In this document: positions 18,838 through 52,695 of the stretch, piece after piece
How positions within the stretch are numbered: the first letter of the stretch is position 1
Layout of the letters: every line of letters begins with the position of its first letter
Assembly: GCA_021796275.1 (NCBI GenBank)
Contig: JAJYOI010000010.1
Location: forward strand, 1 to 52,695
Reading direction: 5' to 3'
From: Bacteroidota bacterium
GTDB lineage: Bacteria; Bacteroidota; Ignavibacteria; UBA10030; UBA8401
Length of the DNA: 52,695 nucleotides
Made by a program: the position numbers and the translations under genes
The notes under the pieces: model-generated
Told to the model about the DNA's origin: nothing
Databases searched by the model: none
The model's input: only the letters and a program-made list of their open reading frames with translations

Positions 18838-19041
18838 TGTACTTCCCTTTCTTTTTGATTGTTTGAAATCCGCCGTGCTTTATCTTTGGGCGGAGTAATT
18901 AAGTGGGTGTGAGATGGTTGTGGAGAGTGAAGATCTTACGTTTGAAAGTGGTTTTCCTCTGAGCGATAAAGGCTGAAGGAGAAAGGATAATTTTTTTTCA
19001 TACTTTAAGCCCTGAATCTTTTTTCTATTCATTACTGACTG

Positions 19042-19465
19042 AACGCGGCCCGGATTGAATTAGATTTTGTAAGGATTGAAATGCCGAGTGCATTGACTGA
19101 ATTGTAGCGTGCGTGGATTGATGTGAAGGACACAAAGATTGACTTGAAAAGTGCGTTGACCGACCTGCCTACCGGCAGGCAGGCTTGAAATTCGCAATGG
19201 TGAGAATGAAATGTGCATTGGCTGAGTTGAAGTGTGCAAAGTTCCAAAGGAATCCCATGGGAATTGAGTTGAAGGGGACGCAGGTTGAGTTGAAAATGAC
19301 AAGGTGGCAGTTGAAACTGACAAAAATGGTATTGAAATGTTCATGGATTGACTTGAAAAGTGCAAAAGTTGAGTTGAAGATCACAAAGATTAGGTTGAAA
19401 ACGACAAAGATTGACTTGAAATTTACAAAGTACGAGCTAAAAGTGCCCAAAATGAATCAAAAATG
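19042..19465. repeat. Degenerate 21-bp tandem array encoding heptads
   Basis: About 19-20 units with a consensus close to ACAAAGATTGACTTGAAAAGT. Read on the plus strand, each unit encodes a heptad of the type T/A-K-I/V-D/E-L-K-x (for example IDLKSAK, VELKITK, IRLKTTK, IDLKFTK). The 3' part forms an open frame of 93 codons (19185-19466), but upstream units carry a stop and a frameshifting 20-bp insertion, so this looks like the remnant of a heptad-repeat protein gene. The opposite strand is also open in a phenylalanine-rich frame because of the repeat composition. The rest of the 18838-19494 gap shows no gene, and no clear promoter was seen. Confidence 0.75.
19164..19183. repeat. 20-bp palindrome inserted in one array unit
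   Basis: CCTGCCT-ACC-GGCAGG-CAGG splits a 21-bp unit. The unit with it is 41 bp; without these 20 bp it reads GCGTTGACCGA + CTTGAAATTC, exactly 21 bp and in register with its neighbours. The insertion shifts the heptad reading frame. Confidence 0.85.
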
Positions 19466-19494: not shown

Positions 19495-20235
19495 TCAATT
19501 GGGAAACAGAGAGAGCAACAGCTCCGATTCATAGAACTCCTTCGCAAGTTTCCCGAAGCTGTTGGCTTGGGGGTTTTTGTGGGGCGGGCGTTTCTCTCCG
19601 CCGAAGGCGAATCCACCTCTGGCGGATTTCATCGGCGCATCATCAGTCACCACACCTGCCGAATAGAGTGTTGCAAGAATGTCTGTTCTGTTATCAATGT
19701 TGATGCCTGCTTCCTTCCATCGGTGACGAACCATTGCAAGGTTAGCGGCAATGTATTTTGTATTCCATGTCGCCTGCGGCGCCATTTTCAATTCGGGTGC
19801 AAGAAGACGATGGACCAACTCTTCGCGCGAGGTGGACAACGGAATAATCTTGCTAAATTTTCTGCCAAGGAAATAAAGACTCGTTGAATCGCTCAATGAT
19901 TTTTCAATCCAGAGCGCTGTGTTAATTTTCACTTGTCCCAAGCCGAGCGAGACATTCAAGCCGTAACCGGCAAGAAGAGGATCAACATCGCGGTCAATCC
20001 ACGTAACATTGAGCGCGTGTTCAACATAAATAACGCTGGCAATCAAGCGAGGAGAAATGTTGAACAGTTTTCCTGCTTCGAGAATTACTGCGCTGTTTTC
20101 TTCAAGCACGTGCAACGCTTGTGCTGAAACTTGAGCTGCACTGTTGGTTGTCCACTGCAACAAGAAGAAAATTGTACCGCAAAGCCGCAACGGCGCAAAG
20201 AATCTTATTGGAAGAAATTTAAAGACTCTCCGCAT
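19495..20235 (-). CDS. Transglycosylase-like exported protein, paralogue A
   Basis: 246 residues from ATG at 20235; longer starts exist up to 20316 but lie in repeat sequence. A hydrophobic segment (LCGTIFFLLQWTTNSAAQ) probably exports it. The core ISPRLIASVIYVEHALN...VSLGLGQVKINTALWIEK resembles the lysozyme-like fold of lytic transglycosylases (the E in YVE and the GLGQVK block match E and GLMQI), so a peptidoglycan-cleaving role is plausible but not shown. Paralogue B at 50910-51560 shares this core. Relative to B, this copy has about 13 extra residues near the C-terminus (MKSARGGFAFGGE, from the 30-bp element at 19597) and about eight near LKMAPQAT. Its N-terminus is embedded in an inverted repeat. 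It follows a T9SS gene on the same strand, as paralogue B does. Confidence 0.65.
   Translation of the reverse strand: MRRVFKFLPIRFFAPLRLCGTIFFLLQWTTNSAAQVSAQALHVLEENSAVILEAGKLFNISPRLIASVIYVEHALNVTWIDRDVDPLLAGYGLNVSLGLGQVKINTALWIEKSLSDSTSLYFLGRKFSKIIPLSTSREELVHRLLAPELKMAPQATWNTKYIAANLAMVRHRWKEAGINIDNRTDILATLYSAGVVTDDAPMKSARGGFAFGGEKRPPHKNPQANSFGKLAKEFYESELLLSLFPN
19597..19626. repeat. 30-bp double-palindrome element inside paralogue A
   Basis: TCCGCC-GAA-GGCGAA abuts TCCACC-TCT-GGCGGA, each a 15-bp palindrome with one mismatch. It is translated in the host gene as part of KSARGGFAFGGE, which is absent from paralogue B. Confidence 0.82.
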
Positions 20236-20253
20236 CTTCGCGGTACAATTTTC
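20166..20253. repeat. CGCAAAG-type inverted repeat over the start of paralogue A
   Basis: Perfect 14-bp outer arms GAAAATTGTACCGC (20166-20179) and GCGGTACAATTTTC (20240-20253). They continue inward as CGCAAAG/CGCAACGGCGCAAAG on the left and CTCCGCATCTTCG on the right. It contains the start codon chosen for paralogue A. A related but diverged inverted repeat lies at 26508-26635. Confidence 0.8.
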
Positions 20254-20308
20254 ATTGCTCACTGTGTCGCCTTTGGCGCCATTTTCAATTAACTGTTCAC
20301 TGGTAATT

Positions 20309-20338
20309 TGCGCCAAAGGCGCATCAGCCTTTGGCTGA
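20309..20338. repeat. 30-bp double-palindrome element, intergenic
   Basis: TGCGCC-AAA-GGCGCA abuts TCAGCC-TTT-GGCTGA, both perfect 15-bp palindromes. It lies nine bases beyond the stop codon of the T9SS gene at 20348. A related TCGCC-TTT-GGCGCC sequence is at 20270, and a near copy of that is at 19772 inside paralogue A, where it is translated as MAPQAT. Confidence 0.88.
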
Positions 20339-20347
20339 GCTCATCGC

Positions 20348-23300
20348 TCACTTTACTAACAAGATTCGCTGCGTGAAGGCCTTGCCCTGCGCTATCAAGC
20401 GAACAAAGTAAATGCCCGACGTAACATTGCTTCCATCAAACTGAGCAGTTTTTACTCCTTCGGTTTGATAGCCGTGAATTAAATCCGCTACCTTGCGTCC
20501 GAGTATGTCGAACACTGCAAGTTCAACCATGCCGGGCTGCAACAAACTATAAGAAATAGTCGTTGCTGGGTTAAATGGGTTCGGATAATTCGGGCGCAAC
20601 GCAGTTTCTGTTGGTATCTCTGTTGTTACGGAGGCAGCAGCTTTTTCCTCTGCTTGTTGTTGTGCGTTGTTGTTTACAGCAGCGCCGCTTGCTCCGAAAT
20701 TTTCAACCATATATTTCATATCTGCGATCAGTTCTGTTACGGGATCGGCAGCGAATTTTGATTGAAGTGCTGACACGCATTGATTGGCATTGTCTTTATC
20801 GCTTGTCCGCCAGTAAAGCTCTGCCAATGCTGCAAGCGAATGTTTCTCTGATTCAGTGTTCGCCCAGCGTTGAGCTATTGTTTTGTGAAGTGTGATTGCC
20901 TGCTGAACGTTTCCTTCATGAGAAGCGTTGATGGCGGCAAGCTCCAGCGCGCTTTGCTCAAGGCGTGTGTTCGCTTTGTCTGTGGAAAGTGTGTTGAAGT
21001 ATTGATAGCCGCTTCTCAAAGTTCCAGTAATTGCTTTGCTCTTCACTGCAGAGTTATAGGCGCGCAGAGCATTATTCATTCTCAACAATGCTGCAACAGC
21101 TTCGTTACTCTCAGAATAATTTCTGATGAGCGTGTCGTAGACTGTAATCGCTTTGTCGTAGAGCTTTGCATACATAAGCTGGTCGGCAAGCGTGAGAAGA
21201 ATCAGTTCGTGTGTGACGACAGGTTGAGAGCTTATCGAAGTGGAAGCAACAGATTTCATCAGTGGCATCGGCTGCGAAGAGACACTGCCTTGTTGAATTG
21301 GAAATGACGCCGTAGGCGACACTGAAAGCGACAATCCCATTGGCTGATCGGTTCCTGAACCTGATCCCACAATTAGCGGATGAGGGCTAAACGACCAGAG
21401 TGCTGGGTCAACCAGTGGATAGGTATTTCCAAAGAGTGTGTTCATGGTTGAAGTTACAAAACCATTCTGGCCATTATCAGGGTTTACACCCCACCAGTTC
21501 TGTTTTGCAAGCACGTATTGTGAAGATGAGTAAACATACAACTGCTTCGTGGAATTAGAATAAATGCTGTTCTCCCCACCATAGACAACACAACTGCCGG
21601 CATCATAATCGCCGAGGAACGGCTGGGTTGTGGATTGTGCGTAGACGCCATAATACACATTGTCTGTAATCTTATTCCAACCCGGCGTGCCTGTTGTGCC
21701 GTTCGGTCCCCCTAAGTTGGGTGCGGCATAATATTCACAACGGACTCCGCTGTGGGAGCCATATTGGATCGTGTTGTATGTCAGGAGCGGCTGAATCCCT
21801 GTGCCGTAAATCCAGAAGCCATCGCGGTAACCATTCGTCCATAGGTTTTTCGTTATCGTGTTGTGGTCCACCGTGGGAGCTGATGATTGAAAAATAACAA
21901 TCCCATCCTCAAGATTATCATTCAGCTGATTGTAGGTAATTCTTTTAACGAAAGAGCTTCCCGTCAGCCTGATCGGATTCAAACAATGTGTGATTGTGTT
22001 GTTGTACACTTCATCGCTTGAGCCGTCAAAACGGGAATTATAAATTGTCATTCCGAATTTGCATTGCGAGATAGTGCAGTTGCGGATGTAGTTTCCATCT
22101 CCGCCCGGGTTGGAATTGGAAATATAAATAGCAGCCCAGTAGTAATTTGGGTCTGTGCTGTTGCTTGTAAATGTTGCGCCATCGGCGTGAATTTTTCCGT
22201 TGATGACGAGTGCACCTTTCGGCGAGCCTTCGGTGTAGACATCTGTGGCAGAGTTGAATTTTAATGCCGCACCGCTGTTCACTACAAGCGTGGCACCGGA
22301 TTGAACAGAGATGTTGGGGACGTTTAACACTGTTGTGTTGCTTGCGATGGTAAGAGTTGCACCTGAATTGACTGTAACGTTTTGCAAGCAAAAATTTTGT
22401 CCGTCAATTGTCGTGTTGCCGGAAATCGTCGAAGGAAGAAAACCAACAGAGTTGGTGTTTACCTTTGAAGAGATATGCGATTGAACATCTACCGCCTCAA
22501 CTTTGTAACGCAAGTACAAAACGACGCCGGAGGGGACGCCGCCCGGAACTGTAAAATTATCCGTATATGAAGTTTCTGTGATTAATGAACTGTTTACTTT
22601 TGTTTCGGAAACTTGCGTTTGCCCGTAATAAAATTCTCTATAAACATTGTAGCCGTTTATGTCCGGCTCAGGATTTGCTGCCCACGTTACTGTTGCTTGG
22701 CTGGACGATGTGTAGGTGGAAGAGACTGATTGCGGGTTAACAGGTGCGGTATCGTACTGACGGTAATTAATGCTCATATCAACGTCAGCCATACGGGTGT
22801 AATATATATCATTTCCAACTGCAATGGGGAATGCATTTATAAATCCTCCCATATCGGACGGCGCTTGATTTGCCGACCACGATGTTCCGTCAAAAATGCG
22901 ATGATAGCATCCTTCCGAAGAGCCGTACTTGTCATAAAATATATGAAGTTTACCATCGGCTGTTGATACAATTTGCGGAGGCCATGCATTGCTGTCGTAA
23001 AAGTCGTCACCAACCCTATCTGTTACCAGCGTCCATATTGTTCCGTCAACGTCTCGTTTGAAATGAGATATTTTATACGGACGAGCGAATGGATCATTTG
23101 CCCTTGCAATCATGTGAACCGTGTTTCCAACAACCGCCGAACTGATTGAATACACCATGAGCGGTGATACCGAAGACCCATTACTTGCCACCCATGTTTG
23201 GGTTTGCCAGTTATAATCTCTGACCTTAAAATACGGTGTATTTTCCTGATAAAAGCCGACATGAACTTTCGAAGCCGAAAGCGCAATGGTTGGATACTTT

Positions 23301-23857
23301 CCGGTCATTCCTGATTCGTCTGTTACTTCTTTGTAGTCATACCATTTCGTGGGATCATCATCGTTAGATAAAGCTCTTGCGTAATACGTTTCATTATTAA
23401 ACGGCGATTGGCTATTAACCTCGGACCACGCAATATGAAATCCGCGGCTGTCAATGTTACTTGTCATCGACGTTACAGAACCTATTGTTAGATTCCTGTA
23501 TTTATAGCCTGTACTCCAGTTCACACCGCCGTCTGTGCTTCGGGCAACTTTCATCTGTCCGGATTGTTCATAGCCGATAAATACTTTTCCATCAAATGCA
23601 GACATTGCAACATAATTCCCGACGTTGCTCAAGACCGAGACATTCTCGCGGATAATATTTCCTTGCGAGTCGAATAGCCCGTATTTCAATGTTGTGCCGT
23701 CTTTATAAAGAACATGAATTCCCTGTTTATCCACGGCAGAAGCTTGAAGAGTTTTAGATCCGCCTGTAAAGATAGTATAATAGACGGAACTCCAAGACTG
23801 AGTATATGCCTGACTGAATACAAACATAACGAGGATAAGACTAAAATACTTTTTCAT
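20348..23857 (-). CDS. Very large T9SS-sorted protein with beta-helix and TPR-like parts
   Basis: 1169 residues from ATG at 23857, chosen because AAGGAG ends six bases before it (the ATG at 23863 abuts it). Signal peptide LILVMFVFSQAYTQ. Residues about 20-370 look like a sialidase/BNR-type beta-propeller (STDGGVNWSTGY, DGKLHIFYDKYG). Residues about 380-470 are an FN3 domain (PVNPQSVSSTYTSSSQATVTW). Residues about 480-800 form a right-handed parallel beta-helix of the NosD/pectate-lyase type (YNNTITHCLNPIRLTGSS, VDHNTITKN, LTYNTIQYGSHSGV). A helical TPR-like part follows (MYAKLYDKAITVYDTLIRNY). The C-terminus is a T9SS domain (NYPNPFNPATTISYSL...GIYFVRL...LLVK). It probably binds or processes polysaccharide outside the cell; no catalytic residues were identified. 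Confidence 0.85.
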   Translation of the reverse strand: MKKYFSLILVMFVFSQAYTQSWSSVYYTIFTGGSKTLQASAVDKQGIHVLYKDGTTLKYGLFDSQGNIIRENVSVLSNVGNYVAMSAFDGKVFIGYEQSGQMKVARSTDGGVNWSTGYKYRNLTIGSVTSMTSNIDSRGFHIAWSEVNSQSPFNNETYYARALSNDDDPTKWYDYKEVTDESGMTGKYPTIALSASKVHVGFYQENTPYFKVRDYNWQTQTWVASNGSSVSPLMVYSISSAVVGNTVHMIARANDPFARPYKISHFKRDVDGTIWTLVTDRVGDDFYDSNAWPPQIVSTADGKLHIFYDKYGSSEGCYHRIFDGTSWSANQAPSDMGGFINAFPIAVGNDIYYTRMADVDMSINYRQYDTAPVNPQSVSSTYTSSSQATVTWAANPEPDINGYNVYREFYYGQTQVSETKVNSSLITETSYTDNFTVPGGVPSGVVLYLRYKVEAVDVQSHISSKVNTNSVGFLPSTISGNTTIDGQNFCLQNVTVNSGATLTIASNTTVLNVPNISVQSGATLVVNSGAALKFNSATDVYTEGSPKGALVINGKIHADGATFTSNSTDPNYYWAAIYISNSNPGGDGNYIRNCTISQCKFGMTIYNSRFDGSSDEVYNNTITHCLNPIRLTGSSFVKRITYNQLNDNLEDGIVIFQSSAPTVDHNTITKNLWTNGYRDGFWIYGTGIQPLLTYNTIQYGSHSGVRCEYYAAPNLGGPNGTTGTPGWNKITDNVYYGVYAQSTTQPFLGDYDAGSCVVYGGENSIYSNSTKQLYVYSSSQYVLAKQNWWGVNPDNGQNGFVTSTMNTLFGNTYPLVDPALWSFSPHPLIVGSGSGTDQPMGLSLSVSPTASFPIQQGSVSSQPMPLMKSVASTSISSQPVVTHELILLTLADQLMYAKLYDKAITVYDTLIRNYSESNEAVAALLRMNNALRAYNSAVKSKAITGTLRSGYQYFNTLSTDKANTRLEQSALELAAINASHEGNVQQAITLHKTIAQRWANTESEKHSLAALAELYWRTSDKDNANQCVSALQSKFAADPVTELIADMKYMVENFGASGAAVNNNAQQQAEEKAAASVTTEIPTETALRPNYPNPFNPATTISYSLLQPGMVELAVFDILGRKVADLIHGYQTEGVKTAQFDGSNVTSGIYFVRLIAQGKAFTQRILLVK

Positions 23858-24046
23858 AACCATCTCCTTATTTCATAAGAATGCGGTTTATTGAGAGAAG
23901 TTTTTCATAGTTTACTTCGTTGTTTTTTGAAACTTCTTTTGATGAATTTTGTGAACGAGATTTCGTTTATTATATTACTGTGTCACGTAGATACACGAAG
24001 CCCTCACAGGACATTCGATCCTGCCAAAAATTCTTCGCAAGAGAAA

Positions 24047-30719: not shown

Positions 30720-31550
30720 ATGTATTTTGATAATGAGACATTCGCCGTAGTTGCCGACGCATTCAGCAAGCAGTCGAAAAATTTTGATGCCTACGAAGAG
30801 CGCAATCCGATTTTGCAATGGATGCGTTCAGTTGTTCATCAGCACACGCTGAAATTTATTCACCCCGGCGATAGACTGTTGGAATTGAATGCCGGCACTG
30901 GAATTGACGCCGTATTTTTTGCTCAACGCGGCGTGCACGTTCACGCAACAGATATTGCTTCCGGGATGATTGAACAGCTTCGTGAAAAAACAGTCCGGTT
31001 AAGTTTACAAAAGTATATTAGAATCGAAGAGCGTTCGTTCGCCGATCTTGAAGGACTTCCTTTGCAATCATTCGATCATATTTTTTCCAATTTCGGCGGA
31101 TTGAATTGTGCTGAAAATCCGGACGTTGTCATTCGGCAGCTTCATCGTTTGCTCAAGCCCGGCGGAACAGTCACGTTTGTCGTCATGCCGCCTGTCTGTC
31201 CTTGGGAAATGGCGTTTATGTTGAAAGGAAATTTCCGTCTCGCATTCCGGCGATTGAAAAGAAATGGTACGCGAGCGAATGTTGAAGGCATTCATTTCAC
31301 CTCGTATTATTTCACTCCGGCACGGCTTGTGAAAATATTTGGAGACAAGTATCGCCTGCTTTCTCTACGTGGACTCGGCTGCGTTGCTCCTCCGCCGTAC
31401 TTTGAAAAATTTCCTGCGCGATTTCCGCAACTGTTTACCATCTTAAAAAAAATTGATCAACGATTCTCCCATCGGTTTCCGTTCAACAGATGGGCGGATC
31501 ATTTCATTCTTACAATGCACTACGCACCCCCACAGGGGTCTTTGACGTGA
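30720..31550 (+). CDS. SAM-dependent methyltransferase (class I)
   Basis: 276 residues from ATG at 30720, with ACAGGAT six bases upstream; an ATG at 30681 would overlap the previous gene by 29 bases. The SAM-binding motifs are LLELNAGTGIDAVFFAQRG and VHATDIASGMI; motif II is HIFSNFGGLNCAENP, and LLKPGGTVTFVVMP follows. The last residues (APPQGSLT) derive from a CCCC-CACA-GGGG palindrome at 31527-31537, so the natural C-terminus may have been altered. It lies between a radical SAM enzyme and a membrane glycosyltransferase and probably methylates a glycan or lipid intermediate. Confidence 0.82.
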   Translation: MYFDNETFAVVADAFSKQSKNFDAYEERNPILQWMRSVVHQHTLKFIHPGDRLLELNAGTGIDAVFFAQRGVHVHATDIASGMIEQLREKTVRLSLQKYIRIEERSFADLEGLPLQSFDHIFSNFGGLNCAENPDVVIRQLHRLLKPGGTVTFVVMPPVCPWEMAFMLKGNFRLAFRRLKRNGTRANVEGIHFTSYYFTPARLVKIFGDKYRLLSLRGLGCVAPPPYFEKFPARFPQLFTILKKIDQRFSHRFPFNRWADHFILTMHYAPPQGSLT

Positions 31551-33337
31551 ATTACCGCAATTTCTTTTCCGGCGAGATGTTGTTTCAATTGTCGCACAAT
31601 CGAATTGGAGCGGCGTTGGTTGGTGTGCTTAGTGCGTTGTTTCTCTACTTCGGATGCTACAAAGCAATAGTTCGACCCGCCGGCGATTTTGCAAATTATT
31701 ATACTGCGTCCCGTCTCGCTCTTTCTGGCAAAGCGGCAGACCTGACGATGTACGACCATTTTTGGTTTCAGAATGAGATTGAAAAATATTTTCCCCCAAG
31801 GGGTTTTCAATACGGAACGCTCGGTTCGTTCATTCCTTTTCCGCCGTCAACCGTGCTTCTCATGATGCCGCTGGCATGGCTTTCTCCAAACGCAGCAAGA
31901 ATTTCTTTCGTGATCGTCAATATGTTATTGACCGCGGGAATTATTCTGATGCTCAGTCAAATTACGAAATTGCCTCTGCGCTTGATCGCAATCTTAGTTC
32001 TTCTCAGCGGCATCAGTTTGTGGAGCAACGTGCGCGAAGGACAGATGTACGAATTGCTTACCCTTGCTATTTCTGCGGCGCTTTTTCTGGAGCAGCGAGT
32101 CAAACATTTTGTTGCCGGTGCTATGCTTGGTGCGATGTTTCCAATTAAGTATTTCACCCTGCTTTTCATTGCCTACTTTTTTGTTCGGAAAAATTTCCGT
32201 TTAGTCGGCGGCGCCATTATCGCCTCCATTGTGATTATCGGCGCAGGGATTTTTTTCACCAGCGCGAAGTTAAACGAGTATTACATTGTTGCAATTTTAC
32301 CGCAGCATCTTGCAGGAAATATTCAAAATCCATTCGCGGCAAATTTTCAGTCGTTTCATTCTTTGCTGAATCGGCTTTTCGTTCCGAATGAAACGCTCAA
32401 TCCTCATCCGCTGGCGAACGTGCCGTTTCTTGCCTCGTTGGTTACAGTAACGATTCCCATTATTTTTTTGGGAATAATTGTTGCGGCAGTTCGTTCAGTT
32501 GCTTGGAAAAGCGGCGTGTATGAAATGTGGTATGCTGTTTCGCTTTTTGTTGTGTACGGACTTGTAACATCGCCCGCGTCGGCAAGTTATCATCTTGTGC
32601 TGCTCGTTATTCCGGTTGTTTTTGTTTCAGCAATTGCGATGGAAAGTGAGCGGACGGAAAAATTGGAATTTATCAAGAGACGGATGGCTTCGCTTGTCGC
32701 GATATTTGCCGTAATGAATTTTTTGCCGCTGTACAAGTTGTACCGATTTGATGGAGGTTCGATCTTAACGCTGCTGGCGTACCTGAGATTAGGATTGCTT
32801 GCGGCTTTTTTTCTACTATTGCTTCCTTCACAGATTTGGCGGACATATTTCTTCCGCCGGACATTGGTCGGCGCAGTTGCTTTGAGTGCCATTCTTACAT
32901 TTGTTCGTTCACAACAAAAAGTAGAAAACGACGGTGCCGTGTGGGCAGGATTCGACGGGCTTATCATTAAGCAGCTCGCTCTACGCGGCAATTCATTTTT
33001 TTATGAACGCGAATCGCCGGCCGGTTTTGTTGCAATGAAAAACCGGTCACTCACAAACGATGATCCGCCCGCACCGCGCAGAATAAGCCGTGATGGCGTG
33101 TTGACGGCATTCGATTCAACCATCGGATTTTCTCAGCAGATATTTCTTCGGAATAATCGTAGCGGCGCCATTGCACAACTGACGCACGCAGGACAACGCA
33201 ATTATGAACCGGTGTGGTCAGACGATGACCGCCGCTTGTACTTTCTTTCAGACCGCGGCCGTGGGATTGATTGCACAACGATTTTTTATTTTCTCTTGGA
33301 CAAAACAAGCCTTTCCCAAAGGGGTTTTCAACCATGA
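31547..33337 (+). CDS. GT87-like polytopic membrane glycosyltransferase (DUF2029)
   Basis: 596 residues from GTG at 31547 (overlapping the previous TGA); ATG at 31577 is also possible. About ten membrane segments are visible. RPAGDFANYYTASRLALSGKAADLTMYD near the N-terminus, with its D in the first extracytoplasmic loop, is the hallmark of GT87/DUF2029 polyprenol-phosphate-mannose-dependent transferases. An unusual C-terminal soluble part ends in a TolB-like motif (IAQLTHAGQRNYEPVWSDDDRRLYFLSDR). Insertion of palindromic elements may have shaped two spots: FPPRGFQYG (31793) and the very end, SLSQRGFQP (33307). The next gene starts within its stop codon (ATGA). It would transfer a sugar from a lipid carrier on the outer face of the inner membrane. 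Confidence 0.8.
   Translation: MNYRNFFSGEMLFQLSHNRIGAALVGVLSALFLYFGCYKAIVRPAGDFANYYTASRLALSGKAADLTMYDHFWFQNEIEKYFPPRGFQYGTLGSFIPFPPSTVLLMMPLAWLSPNAARISFVIVNMLLTAGIILMLSQITKLPLRLIAILVLLSGISLWSNVREGQMYELLTLAISAALFLEQRVKHFVAGAMLGAMFPIKYFTLLFIAYFFVRKNFRLVGGAIIASIVIIGAGIFFTSAKLNEYYIVAILPQHLAGNIQNPFAANFQSFHSLLNRLFVPNETLNPHPLANVPFLASLVTVTIPIIFLGIIVAAVRSVAWKSGVYEMWYAVSLFVVYGLVTSPASASYHLVLLVIPVVFVSAIAMESERTEKLEFIKRRMASLVAIFAVMNFLPLYKLYRFDGGSILTLLAYLRLGLLAAFFLLLLPSQIWRTYFFRRTLVGAVALSAILTFVRSQQKVENDGAVWAGFDGLIIKQLALRGNSFFYERESPAGFVAMKNRSLTNDDPPAPRRISRDGVLTAFDSTIGFSQQIFLRNNRSGAIAQLTHAGQRNYEPVWSDDDRRLYFLSDRGRGIDCTTIFYFLLDKTSLSQRGFQP
31793..31810. repeat. GGGGTTTTCAA-type palindromic element in the GT87 gene
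   Basis: CCCCCAAGGGG followed by TTTTCAA. It shares the GGGGTTTTCAA block with 33307-33333, 51087-51114 and 52064-52100. It is translated as PPRGFQ. Confidence 0.55.
33307..33333. repeat. GGGGTTTTCAACC element at the GT87/GT9 junction
   Basis: CCTTTCCC-AAA-GGGG followed by TTTTCAACC immediately precedes the ATGA overlap that starts the GT9 gene. It encodes the last residues of the GT87 protein. Confidence 0.6.
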
Positions 33338-36803: not shown

Positions 36804-36833
36804 TCCGCCACAAGCGGATCAGCCTTTGGCTGA
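36804..36833. repeat. 30-bp double-palindrome element upstream of the M48 gene
   Basis: TCCGC-CACAA-GCGGA abuts TCAGCC-TTT-GGCTGA. It lies between the methyltransferase stop (36746) and the M48 coding region, and its TTG can be read as a spurious upstream start of the M48 frame. Confidence 0.85.
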
Positions 36834-36861
36834 AGAACACCACCTCACGCCGTTGTCATTC

Positions 36862-38082
36862 ATGAAATTGTTTCATGTTGTTGTAGCCGTTCCGCGTTGC
36901 CTCAAGCGCCAACTTCAGTTTGTTGATGAAGGGCAAAAGGGAACGACTCCCTTCGCAACCCCATCTGGTCAGGCAAAACGATACAATAAAATCAAGCTTG
37001 CTGTGTCTCTTTTTGAGACAGTCCTTTCGTTTGCAGTTATCCTTGTTGTTCTTCTTGCAGGGTATTCGACGCGATTGGAAACGTTCTCGTTTTCATTGAC
37101 GACATCCCCATACATTGCTCTGCTGATTTTTGCGGCAGCGCTTGGTCTTATCACCGGCATTATTTCGTTTCCGTTGGGATTTTATTCCGGATTTATTCTT
37201 GAACACAAATATCATCTTTCGAATCAAACGGTGCGGCAATGGTTGTGGGAACACGTCAAAGGAATACTTGTCAGCGTTCCGATAGCCGTGCCGTTGCTGC
37301 TGGTATTCTTCTTTTTTCTTCGTGCTTATCAAACTCAATGGTGGCTTCCTGTTGCGATTGTCATGTTTGTCGTTTCGATTCTTCTTTCGAAAATTGCACC
37401 GGTTGTGATTATGCCGTTGTTCTACAAATTTATTCCGCTTGAAGAAGGCGAACTGAAAGAAAAAATTCTCGCGCTGTGTAGAGAAACGAATCAGCCAGAG
37501 GCTGATCCGCCTCCGGCGGAAATGAATGTCAAAGGAATTTTCACATTCAACCTGAGCAAGACGACAAAAAAAGCGAACGCCGGGTTTACCGGCATAGGCA
37601 AATCGAAGCGGATTATTCTCGGTGACACACTGATGCAGCATTTTTCCAACGACGAAATTGAAACCGTGTTCGCGCATGAGCTTGGACATTACGTTCATGG
37701 ACACATCCGAAAAGGAATTATTGTCGGCACGCTCAGCATTTTTATCGGACTGTATGCAACATCGCTGTTTTATGAAATGTCGCTGCACTGGTTCGGTTTT
37801 ACTTCGCCGGCGCAGCTTGCCGCATTGCCGCTGCTGACGTTATGGCTCGGTGTTTACTCGCTTGTCACGTCGCCGTTGTCGAATATGCTTTCGCGAAAGC
37901 ACGAATTTCAGGCTGACCGATATGCGCTCGAACGCACCGGCAAAACGGAAGCATTCATTTCAACAATGAAGAAACTTGCAGAAATGAATTTAGCCGATAC
38001 AGCGCCGCATCCGCTCGTTGAATTTCTGTTTTACAGTCATCCGTCAATTGAGAAAAGAATTCGTGCGGCGGAAAAATTATGA
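36862..38082 (+). CDS. M48 (Ste24/HtpX-like) membrane zinc peptidase
   Basis: About 406 residues; the start is uncertain. ATG at 36862 is preferred over the element-borne TTG at 36826. Membrane segments: VSLFETVLSFAVILVVLLAGY, YIALLIFAAALGLITGII, ILVSVPIAVPLLLVFFFFL, VAIVMFVVSILL, then two more after the active site. The zinc site is HELGH at about 272-276 in VFAHELGHYVHGH, with the third ligand E in the later KHEFQADRYAL. The family degrades or trims membrane proteins. A 30-bp palindromic element at 37491-37520 adds ten codons (QPEADPPPAE) just before the conserved MNVKGIFTFNLSKTTKKANAG block. KGTTPFATPSG near the N-terminus may be a second insertion. The stop overlaps the next start as ATGA. 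Confidence 0.85.
   Translation: MKLFHVVVAVPRCLKRQLQFVDEGQKGTTPFATPSGQAKRYNKIKLAVSLFETVLSFAVILVVLLAGYSTRLETFSFSLTTSPYIALLIFAAALGLITGIISFPLGFYSGFILEHKYHLSNQTVRQWLWEHVKGILVSVPIAVPLLLVFFFFLRAYQTQWWLPVAIVMFVVSILLSKIAPVVIMPLFYKFIPLEEGELKEKILALCRETNQPEADPPPAEMNVKGIFTFNLSKTTKKANAGFTGIGKSKRIILGDTLMQHFSNDEIETVFAHELGHYVHGHIRKGIIVGTLSIFIGLYATSLFYEMSLHWFGFTSPAQLAALPLLTLWLGVYSLVTSPLSNMLSRKHEFQADRYALERTGKTEAFISTMKKLAEMNLADTAPHPLVEFLFYSHPSIEKRIRAAEKL
37491..37520. repeat. 30-bp double-palindrome element in frame inside the M48 gene
   Basis: TCAGCC-AGA-GGCTGA abuts TCCGCC-TCC-GGCGGA, two perfect 15-bp palindromes of different arm sequence. It adds ten codons without a frameshift; without it the protein reads CRETKMNVKGIFTF, matching the usual spacing of the family. 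Confidence 0.9.
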
Positions 38083-50180: not shown

Positions 50181-50210
50181 TCAGCCAAAGGCTGATCAGC
50201 CTACGGCTGA
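50181..50210. repeat. 30-bp double-palindrome element inserted in the end of rpmA
   Basis: TCAGCC-AAA-GGCTGA (50181-50195) abuts TCAGCC-TAC-GGCTGA (50196-50210); both are perfect. The minus-strand TAG inside the second palindrome is the stop codon used by rpmA. Confidence 0.93.
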
Positions 50211-50909: not shown

Positions 50910-51560
50910 CTAAGGAAACTCCATTCTTAACACAAAGCCATCATAAAACCTTTGCGCCGTTTTCCCGAAATGACTCATCTGAGGATTTGAATGAGGTATC
51001 CTCTCTGTTCCGTCAAACCTGATGGTGCCGAGGGAATAGAGCGTTGCGATAATCCCGGTTTTGTTTCGATCCGACAGAAACGCTCCGGTTGAAAACCCCG
51101 TTGGGGCTTTTTCCCACCGTTGCTCGATCATCGCCGCATACGCGCAACAATAAAGAATGTTAATGCTGTCGTTAAACAAGCGGTGAATCAACTCCGGGCG
51201 TGACGTGCTTCGTGGAAATTTACTCTTCACATCATCACCAAGATAATACAGACTGTTTGGGTTATGGATTTCCTTTTCAATCCAGAACGCCGTTGTCACT
51301 TTGATTTGTGCAAAACCGACAGAACTATTGTAACCGGATTCGGCGAAAAGTCCATCCAGCCAATCATCTTCCAAATTGTAGTTGAGAAAGCGTTCGGCGT
51401 AAATGACACTTGCAACGAGACGCGGAGAAATGCCGAACGCGTTCGCCGAGTTGCGGATGAGTTGTTGATGCTCTGCAATTTCGTTTAAGACACGTTCCTC
51501 GTTATTGGCTGCAAGAGCTGACGTTGTAAATAACAATATTACAGCAAGTAGTCTGTTCAT
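50910..51560 (-). CDS. Transglycosylase-like exported protein, paralogue B
   Basis: 216 residues from ATG at 51560, giving signal peptide MNRLLAVILLFTTSALA. The core ISPRLVASVIYAERFLN...SSVGFAQIKVTTAFWIEK has the E and GFAQIK features of a lysozyme-like fold and matches paralogue A at 19495. Compared with A it has about eight extra residues (PTGFSTGA) that coincide with the CCCC-AAC-GGGG element at 51087, while it lacks the RGGFAFGGE insertion of A. A peptidoglycan role is inferred, not shown. It lies after a T9SS gene on the same strand, the same arrangement as paralogue A. Confidence 0.68.
   Translation of the reverse strand: MNRLLAVILLFTTSALAANNEERVLNEIAEHQQLIRNSANAFGISPRLVASVIYAERFLNYNLEDDWLDGLFAESGYNSSVGFAQIKVTTAFWIEKEIHNPNSLYYLGDDVKSKFPRSTSRPELIHRLFNDSINILYCCAYAAMIEQRWEKAPTGFSTGAFLSDRNKTGIIATLYSLGTIRFDGTERIPHSNPQMSHFGKTAQRFYDGFVLRMEFP
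51087..51114. repeat. CCCC-AAC-GGGG-TTTTCAACC element in paralogue B
   Basis: On the minus strand GCCCC-AAC-GGGG followed by TTTTCAACC. It is translated as APTGFST in frame. The same block occurs in the T9SS gene at 52064 and near 33307. Confidence 0.72.
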
Positions 51561-51618: not shown

Positions 51619-52695
51619 TTACTTCAACAAAACGAATCGTTTTGTTTCAACATATTCCCCAGCGGTAATCCGGTAAAAATAGACACCGGAAGAAAGTGAA
51701 GACGCATCCAAACGAACGTTGTAACTGCCTGCATCGTAATAGTCGTTCACCAACTCTTTCACTTCCTGCCCAAGCGGATTATAGACTTTTAACACAACAT
51801 GCTGCGGCTCAACAAGATCGAATTGAATTGTTGTGGTCGGGTTAAAAGGATTAGGATAATTTTGATGAAGGGCATACTGTGTCGGAAGCGCCGGCGGTTC
51901 CTCAAAGAACTTCTTCAAGTTCTCATCTTCTTTGCTGAGAATAAGATAATCATTCACAAAAATCGGCTCTGCATTGCCCGCCATTGCAACATCTACATAC
52001 AGGTTTCTTCCTTTTAGTCCGGTCAGCGGAATGTTCATGGTGCGAAATTCGCCGTCTGTTGATGTTGCTCCAACGGGGTTTTCAACTCCAACGGAGTCCT
52101 TCGTGACCTGCGCAAGATGTGAGAGCGGAACGTCCCAGATTTCTTTCACCACTTCATCGGTCGCTGCATCTTTTAACTGAACTTTCAGCATATCTGCTAT
52201 CTCGTTCAATGCTGCTTTTTTCGGAAGCTGTAAACCTTTCGCGTAATACGCTCCGGCGAGCTTCAACTCATCGGCGTTTGCATTGACACTGAAATTTTCT
52301 GAATGCAAATCTCGTTCGTTCTTTTGCATAGCTATAGGAAGTGTGCTGGAAGAAACGGATGCTTTAGAAAGCCTCGCAACTTCAAATGCAATCATGCCTT
52401 TGTATCCTTTTGCTTGCAGTGCAGGAATCGAATCAAGATAGGTAATAACATGCTTGTTTAATCGGTAAGAGACCAGTTTCTCTACGTTACCTGTTTTTTG
52501 GAGGCCGGAACTTGCTACAGCAATATGTCCGTCTGATTTTTTCCACAACTGGAGTAAGCCAAAACCTTCTCTCGTTCTGTTGATAGCGGAGAGAGCGGTT
52601 CCGCCGGAAGATCCTGAGGCAATAATATTGGGTGTAGTCCATGTCGTTCCAAGCCCTCTTGTCGAGTAAATGCTACCGTCTACTTCCCAATAAAC
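51619..52695 (-). CDS. T9SS-sorted secreted protein, N-terminus beyond window
   Basis: Reading on the minus strand is open to the right edge, so the start is missing; 358 codons are seen. The visible part is beta-rich and of unknown family (SYRLNKHVITYLDSIPAL, IPLTGLKGRNLYVDVAMAGNAEPIFVNDYLIL). The C-terminus is a type A T9SS domain (NYPNPFNPTTTIQFDLV, VVLKVYNPLGQEVKELV, GVYFYRITAGEY, ending RFVLLK). It contains an in-frame palindromic element (SVGVENPVGAT, from 52064-52100). It probably sits on the cell surface. Its stop is followed by a strong terminator and then the transglycosylase-like gene. Confidence 0.85.
   Translation of the reverse strand, partial: VYWEVDGSIYSTRGLGTTWTTPNIIASGSSGGTALSAINRTREGFGLLQLWKKSDGHIAVASSGLQKTGNVEKLVSYRLNKHVITYLDSIPALQAKGYKGMIAFEVARLSKASVSSSTLPIAMQKNERDLHSENFSVNANADELKLAGAYYAKGLQLPKKAALNEIADMLKVQLKDAATDEVVKEIWDVPLSHLAQVTKDSVGVENPVGATSTDGEFRTMNIPLTGLKGRNLYVDVAMAGNAEPIFVNDYLILSKEDENLKKFFEEPPALPTQYALHQNYPNPFNPTTTIQFDLVEPQHVVLKVYNPLGQEVKELVNDYYDAGSYNVRLDASSLSSGVYFYRITAGEYVETKRFVLLK
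52064..52100. repeat. Palindromic element in frame inside the T9SS gene
   Basis: CTCC-AAC-GGGG followed by TTTTCAACTCC-AAC-GGAGTCC. It joins the GGGGTTTTCAA block to a CTCC-AAC-GGAG palindrome like the CTCC-GAA-GGAG part of the 7879 repeat. It is translated as SVGVENPVGAT. Confidence 0.65.

Follow-up and report, generated by a model that had tools for sequence, protein, structure and literature searches.

Genes A and B and their three extra stretches

The window analyzed here, the whole 52,695-nt stretch of contig JAJYOI010000010.1 from an Ignavibacteria-affiliated Bacteroidota bacterium (GCA_021796275.1; genome G000), contains two paralogous genes, A and B (Table 1), which differ by three stretches of additional sequence, each holding a DNA palindrome. 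The shared core of the two genes, claimed in the original prediction from the window's letters, is borne out by BLASTP (E 8e-47, identity 38%). When A and B are aligned with ten homologues from this genome and other species, the additional sequence falls into three clean blocks: A is longer by 8 residues before TWN and by 13 after GVVTDD, and B is longer by 6 after RWEKA. The LKMAPQAT block of A, put at about eight residues in the prediction, is exactly eight residues (24 nt) long. The second excess in A is also real, but the “34 versus 21” residues counted between LYS and NPQ include both anchors, the true difference being 13. The excess of about eight residues in B stands in comparison with A, whereas it is only 6 residues (18 nt) in comparison with close paralogues; the remaining two are a clade difference.

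Both inserts of A are absent from all 11 other aligned proteins, including the nearest (L002, 60–70% identical). The insert of B is absent from the third paralogue in this genome (L009), three of the four homologues in the sister species G002, and the whole clade of A. It is common only to L013, the syntenic orthologue of B in G002, and is therefore not unique to B. Since the short forms agree on both sides of the split between A and B, sequence comparison supports the longer form as the derived one at all three places. Orthologues could have pointed to the short form as derived, but the opposite was found, as most homologues carry the short form. A and B were also proposed as empty-site controls for each other; the indels are real, but the two genes are too diverged to fix the breakpoints, and it is closer paralogues, together with other genes and species, that provide the clean empty sites.

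The predicted palindromes are present in each excess: the 30-bp element TCCGCCGAAGGCGAATCCACCTCTGGCGGA at 19597-19626 in the 13-residue block, TCGCCTGCGGCGCC at about 19770 in the LKMAPQAT block, and CCCCGTTGGGG at about 51096-51106 in B. Their description as palindromic insertions can be sharpened, as they are copies of three distinct, dispersed hairpin families (F1, F3, and F4). The 8-residue insert of A corresponds to F1 (24 nt net), the 13-residue insert of A contains F4, and the 6-residue insert of B corresponds to F3 (18 nt net). Random placement would yield three such copies in A and B with a probability of about 1e-4, a post hoc estimate for genes picked for this feature. The most probable explanation, to which we give roughly 85%, is that short mobile DNA hairpins of three different families were inserted at the three places, each in a separate event and in frame.

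Hairpin families in the genome

The families were derived from 1.77 Mb of this genome by clustering hairpins centered on CC-NNN-GG according to their flanking sequence. Copy counts allow up to 4–5 mismatches, reversed patterns served as the control, and genes were called with a simple codon-usage caller. When perfect hairpins were counted genome-wide and sorted by loop length, loop 3 stood out only weakly, and stem length alone is therefore a poor signal; the CC-NNN-GG class, whose centers have unusually long stems, emerged once the closing bases were taken into account. The scan recovered 47 copies of F4, 36 each of F1 and F3, 17 of F2, and 13 of F5, compared to 0–2 for the reversed patterns overall and 0–1 for those of F1, F3, and F4, so that the palindromes in A and B exceed chance. 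The consensus sequences are AGCCCC-NNN-GGGGTTTTCAACCGG for F3, TGGAACATGGCGCC-NNN-GGCGACA for F1, and TCMGCC-NNA-GGCKGA|TCMGCC-TNN-GGCKGA for F4, a 15-nt hairpin usually paired into 30 nt, with adjacent copies nearly always inverted. Sequence outside the stems is also kept (the F3 tail TTTTCAAC and the F1 leader TGGAACA), and the leader TTGAAAA is enriched 10-fold before CC-NNN-GG stems (p 7.5e-11).

The families differ in their relation to genes. F3 and F1 lie well inside genes in 25 of 36 and 21 of 36 copies, respectively, compared to a fraction of 0.77 for random positions, and 13 of 16 exact F3 cores are in called genes (coding fraction 0.86). F4 (15/47) and F5 (1/13) are depleted inside genes. 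Contig L093 (3803-3984) harbors three near-identical tandem units with a 79-bp spacing, possibly tRNA-like, which contain GGCGCC-AGC-GGCGCC and inflate loose F1 counts. Rfam covariance models gave no match at the gathering score anywhere in the window, and we found no description of these hairpin families in this bacterial group in the open-access literature.

The same DNA is read in different ways. For exact F3 cores, five of the six frames are in use and the sixth has a TGA stop, and F3 copies encode PTGFSTG, PVENPLGA, QPQGGSQP, or SPKGVFNR; the reading of F1 is either MEHGAKGD or WNMAPKAT, depending on the gene. That the same DNA occurs in different frames of unrelated proteins indicates that the DNA, rather than the peptide, spreads. 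Conserved peptide motifs, with the palindromes as a by-product of codon choice, might be suspected from the recurring peptides, as the usual reading of F4 is QPKADQPKAE and F1 favors its coding orientation (19/24). However, this explanation is hardly credible given the use of different frames and both strands by F1 and F3, the many intergenic copies, and the covariation of the F4 stems, in which 96% of cells are paired and 45 cells carry double changes compared to 12.5 after shuffling (0/500). The F4 stems are thus kept by compensatory changes, and the loops vary.

Empty sites and distribution among genomes

Clean empty sites give net gains of 18 nt for F3, 24 nt for F1, and a unit step of 15 nt for F4, all multiples of three. 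The F3 gain is observed in B, in a gene with a type IX secretion system (T9SS)-type C-terminal domain relative to its tandem neighbor (L053), and in L094 and L129 relative to genome G001. The F1 gain is observed in A and in L121 relative to G001. The F4 step, at 50181, is between the double hairpin of this genome and a single hairpin in the syntenic DNA of G002 (L146). At the empty sites compared, any target duplication seen is limited to about 1 bp. At some other sites, G000 and G001 both carry the element, and the insertions therefore differ in age.

F3 is restricted to one genus, as exact copies of its core number 27, 24, and 12 in three genus members and zero in 57 other genomes. F1 is near background outside the genus. 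Single hairpins of the F4 type occur in 97 of 120 genomes, with 64 + 60 matches in this genome compared to zero for the control. The exact F3 element is also found on two IMG/VR contigs (L197, 4866-4886; L198, 2450-2470), and the family may therefore also ride on viral or proviral DNA. No relative of A or B is encoded on the viral contigs searched.

Weighing of alternative explanations

The extra stretches could instead be ancestral and have been removed from the other paralogues by exact deletions spanning the palindromes, which are able to promote deletion; the presence of the B insert in two species would also agree with such a history. This is very improbable, as many independent exact losses would be needed, in every other homologue, and neither the same DNA in different frames of unrelated genes nor the confinement of F3 to one genus would be explained. 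The palindromes could also stem from local template switching in replication (snap-back copying), without movement of an element, since varied arms around a fixed CC-NNN-GG center could seed snap-back extension. Local origin would not account for the shared sequence outside the stem (the TTGAAAA leader, the F3 tail, and the F1 leader), the genus-specific family consensus, or the empty sites without family sequence, and no examined insertion is wholly copyable from adjacent DNA. We regard it as a very unlikely source of the insertions, although template switching may have produced some of the variation in arms and loops.

Several observations weigh against insertion of mobile hairpins as we propose it. 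The F4-containing insert of A is 39 nt rather than 30 nt, and another small change must therefore have happened there. The gene tree does not group B with L013 although synteny pairs them, and it does not settle the history of the B insert; gene conversion or a second insertion is therefore possible. No insertion was observed as it happened, and the flanks of the four Y1 genes did not link F1, F3, or F4 to any transposase. One of these genes, in L139, is flanked on both sides by a GTAG-type repetitive extragenic palindrome (REP) and not by F1 or F3.

Potential mechanism of movement

The hairpins, the paired inverted units, and the lack of a long duplication would fit single-strand (HUH) transposition. 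An enzyme acting in trans on single-stranded hairpins may copy or move the units without long target duplication, most plausibly a transposase of the REP-associated type (Y1, HUH). Purifying selection would then keep only those insertions that add a harmless surface peptide. This genome encodes four Y1 transposases. A single F4 dimer lies near one of them (L139, ~115 bp from the Y1 domain), which is about what is expected by chance according to our estimate. In L139 (G000:C66), the Y1 transposase is located between hairpins at 1250 and 2180, GGTAGCCGCAGAC-TTTAC-GTCTGCGG with a GTAG tag, and is likely part of a REPtron. A GTAG-type hairpin was also observed in the sister species G002 (GTAGCCGCAACCTTTAGATTGC in L146, which is syntenic to about 50160); the corresponding site of this genome is empty.

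It is conceivable, though we lean slightly against it, that the families represent a new class of untagged mobile hairpins in Ignavibacteriales-related bacteria, with net sizes in multiples of three (15, 18, and 24 nt), the same TTGAAAA leader in several families, and entry of F3 into genes at approximately the rate of random positions. Such a class would be moved by an unrecognized enzyme and would be a continuing source of in-frame peptides.

Products of A and B and their surroundings

The A/B-type proteins appear to be secreted and helical by prediction, and have an invariant Glu and a conserved S-x-G-x-x-Q-x-K stretch. A profile search gave a weak match to the Tse3 muramidase. Foldseek returned only non-significant matches, mostly to lytic transglycosylases and goose lysozymes, and Pfam and NCBIfam searches yielded no confident family for A or B. 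A lysozyme-like enzyme is the likely product. Homologues of A were found in 7 of 100 relatives searched, and the named homologue records are from metagenome-assembled genomes of Bacteroidota and Ignavibacteriales. In the AlphaFold model of A (predicted template-modeling score, pTM, 0.82), only two segments, residues 116-121 and 167-180, have a predicted local distance difference test (pLDDT) score below 50, and these match the positions of the two inserts. Based on this model, the inserts of A are most simply regarded as tolerated flexible loops. The inserts are probably of no use to A or B.

The reading frame of A stays open to 20316 and includes element sequence from upstream of the gene. 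A long imperfect inverted repeat at 20165-20245 (GTACCGCGAAGATGCGG...CCGCAACGGCGCAAAG) is the source of the likely ATG of A and part of its signal peptide (MRRVFKFLPIRFFAPLRLCG), and minisatellite-like degenerate repeats (ATTGACTTGAAA..TGCAAAG) are located downstream of A (19040-19460). Large proteins with NPFNP-type C-terminal sorting domains adjoin both A (20348-23863) and B (51619-52695), and the two genes are therefore in similar neighborhoods.

Table 1. Genes A and B and hairpin copies located in the window (ORF, open reading frame).
Feature	Position	Strand	Basis
Gene A, secreted, probably lysozyme-like	19495..20235	-	ORF list, translation, homologues, weak Tse3 muramidase match
Gene B, paralogue of A	50910..51560	-	ORF list, BLASTP
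F1 hairpin TTGAAAATGGCGCC-GCA-GGCGACA, read LKMAPQAT, 24 nt net in A	19768..19791	-	family scan, frame, absent in homologues
F4 30-nt double hairpin TCCGCC-GAA-GGCGAA/TCCACC-TCT-GGCGGA, read SARGGFAFGG on minus strand	19597..19626	.	family scan, frame
Net 39-nt (13-residue) insertion in A containing F4; borders ambiguous by a few bases	19600..19638	-	codon alignment
F3 hairpin AGCCCC-AAC-GGGGTTTTCAACCGG in B, read KAPTGFSTG; 18-nt net insert at ~51089-51106	51085..51108	-	alignment, scan, frame, empty site
Second F1 copy, 5' extension of A frame, read IENGAKGDT	20265..20288	-	scan, frame
F4 double hairpin TGCGCC-AAA-GGCGCA/TCAGCC-TTT-GGCTGA, just upstream of A (5' extension of A)	20309..20338	.	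scan
F4 double hairpin; single hairpin in syntenic G002 DNA (L146)	50181..50210	.	scan, cross-species comparison
F4 double hairpin inside ORF 36826-38082, read NQPEADPPPAE	37491..37520	.	scan, frame
F4 double hairpin at 5' end of ORF 36826-38082	36804..36833	.	scan
Diverged F1 copy inside gene 20348-23863 (-), neighbor of A	21298..21321	+	scan, frame
Diverged F3 copy forming the C-terminus (..RGFQP*) of ORF 31490-33337	33312..33335	+	scan, frame
F5 double hairpin, intergenic	19239..19264	+	scan

Comparison with known systems

Double-hairpin elements are found in the mitochondrial DNA of fungi and algae (e.g., Allomyces). F4 may be likened to these in having two adjacent small hairpins with variable loops that are dispersed and apparently mobile, but the mitochondrial elements belong to organelle genomes and the similarity is one of resemblance only. 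The enterobacterial RU are, like the families described here, small mobile repeats that are translatable when intragenic, but they are MITE-like (miniature inverted-repeat transposable element) repeats of 103–168 bp and thus several times longer (PMC2759123).

The GTAG and CGTC REPs share more traits with our families, including short stem-loops, many copies, a predominance of inverted dimers, known intragenic copies, variable loops, and covarying stems (PMC3733652). GTAG REPs are served by REP-associated tyrosine transposases (RAYTs) (PMC2817692, PMC8266576), and no dedicated transposase is known for CGTC REPs (PMC3733652). CGTC REPs are characterized by a CGTC tag, a stem of 8–9 bp, and a loop of 4–5 nt (PMC3733652). 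Neither tag characterizes the families here, as GTAG or CTAC is located within ≤8 nt of the element in 0 of 36 F3, 2 of 36 F1, and 5 of 47 F4 copies, and CGTC or GACG is near 4 of 47 F4 and 5 of 36 F3 copies. The stems and loops are also shorter than those of CGTC REPs (6 bp and 3 nt in F4), and the flanks of the four Y1 genes revealed none of the RAYT association of the GTAG superfamily. F4 resembles the CGTC type in its predominantly inverted dimers and in that no transposase association was found. Classical REPs are mostly extragenic, whereas F3 and F1 are mostly inside genes; F5 appears to be extragenic (1/13 inside).

Rickettsia offers the best-known examples of palindromic insertions that keep the reading frame. 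As in the Rickettsia palindromic elements (RPEs), the hairpins here are inserted in frame in coding genes and have empty sites in orthologues, and, as for the short RPEs (RPE-4 and RPE-6), no dedicated transposase is known (PMC3733652, PMC2635572). RPE-4 and RPE-6 are of the CGTC type (PMC3733652), from which our families differ as described above. The insertions in this genome are distinguished from RPEs by their net size (15–24 nt), 4–6 bp stems, and 3-nt loops, and by their occurrence in another phylum with apparently free-living hosts. The sequences appear to differ, and the likeness is in the way of working. Short mobile DNA adds new peptides to apparently working proteins, and caution is advised where protein alignments of this group show short indels specific to one lineage, since mobile DNA and not adaptation may be their source. 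The behavior known from the Rickettsia insertions is now met in seemingly free-living bacteria and in several families at once; as congeners provide clean empty sites and at least one family is genus-restricted, polarity, insertion rate, and target rules become directly measurable.
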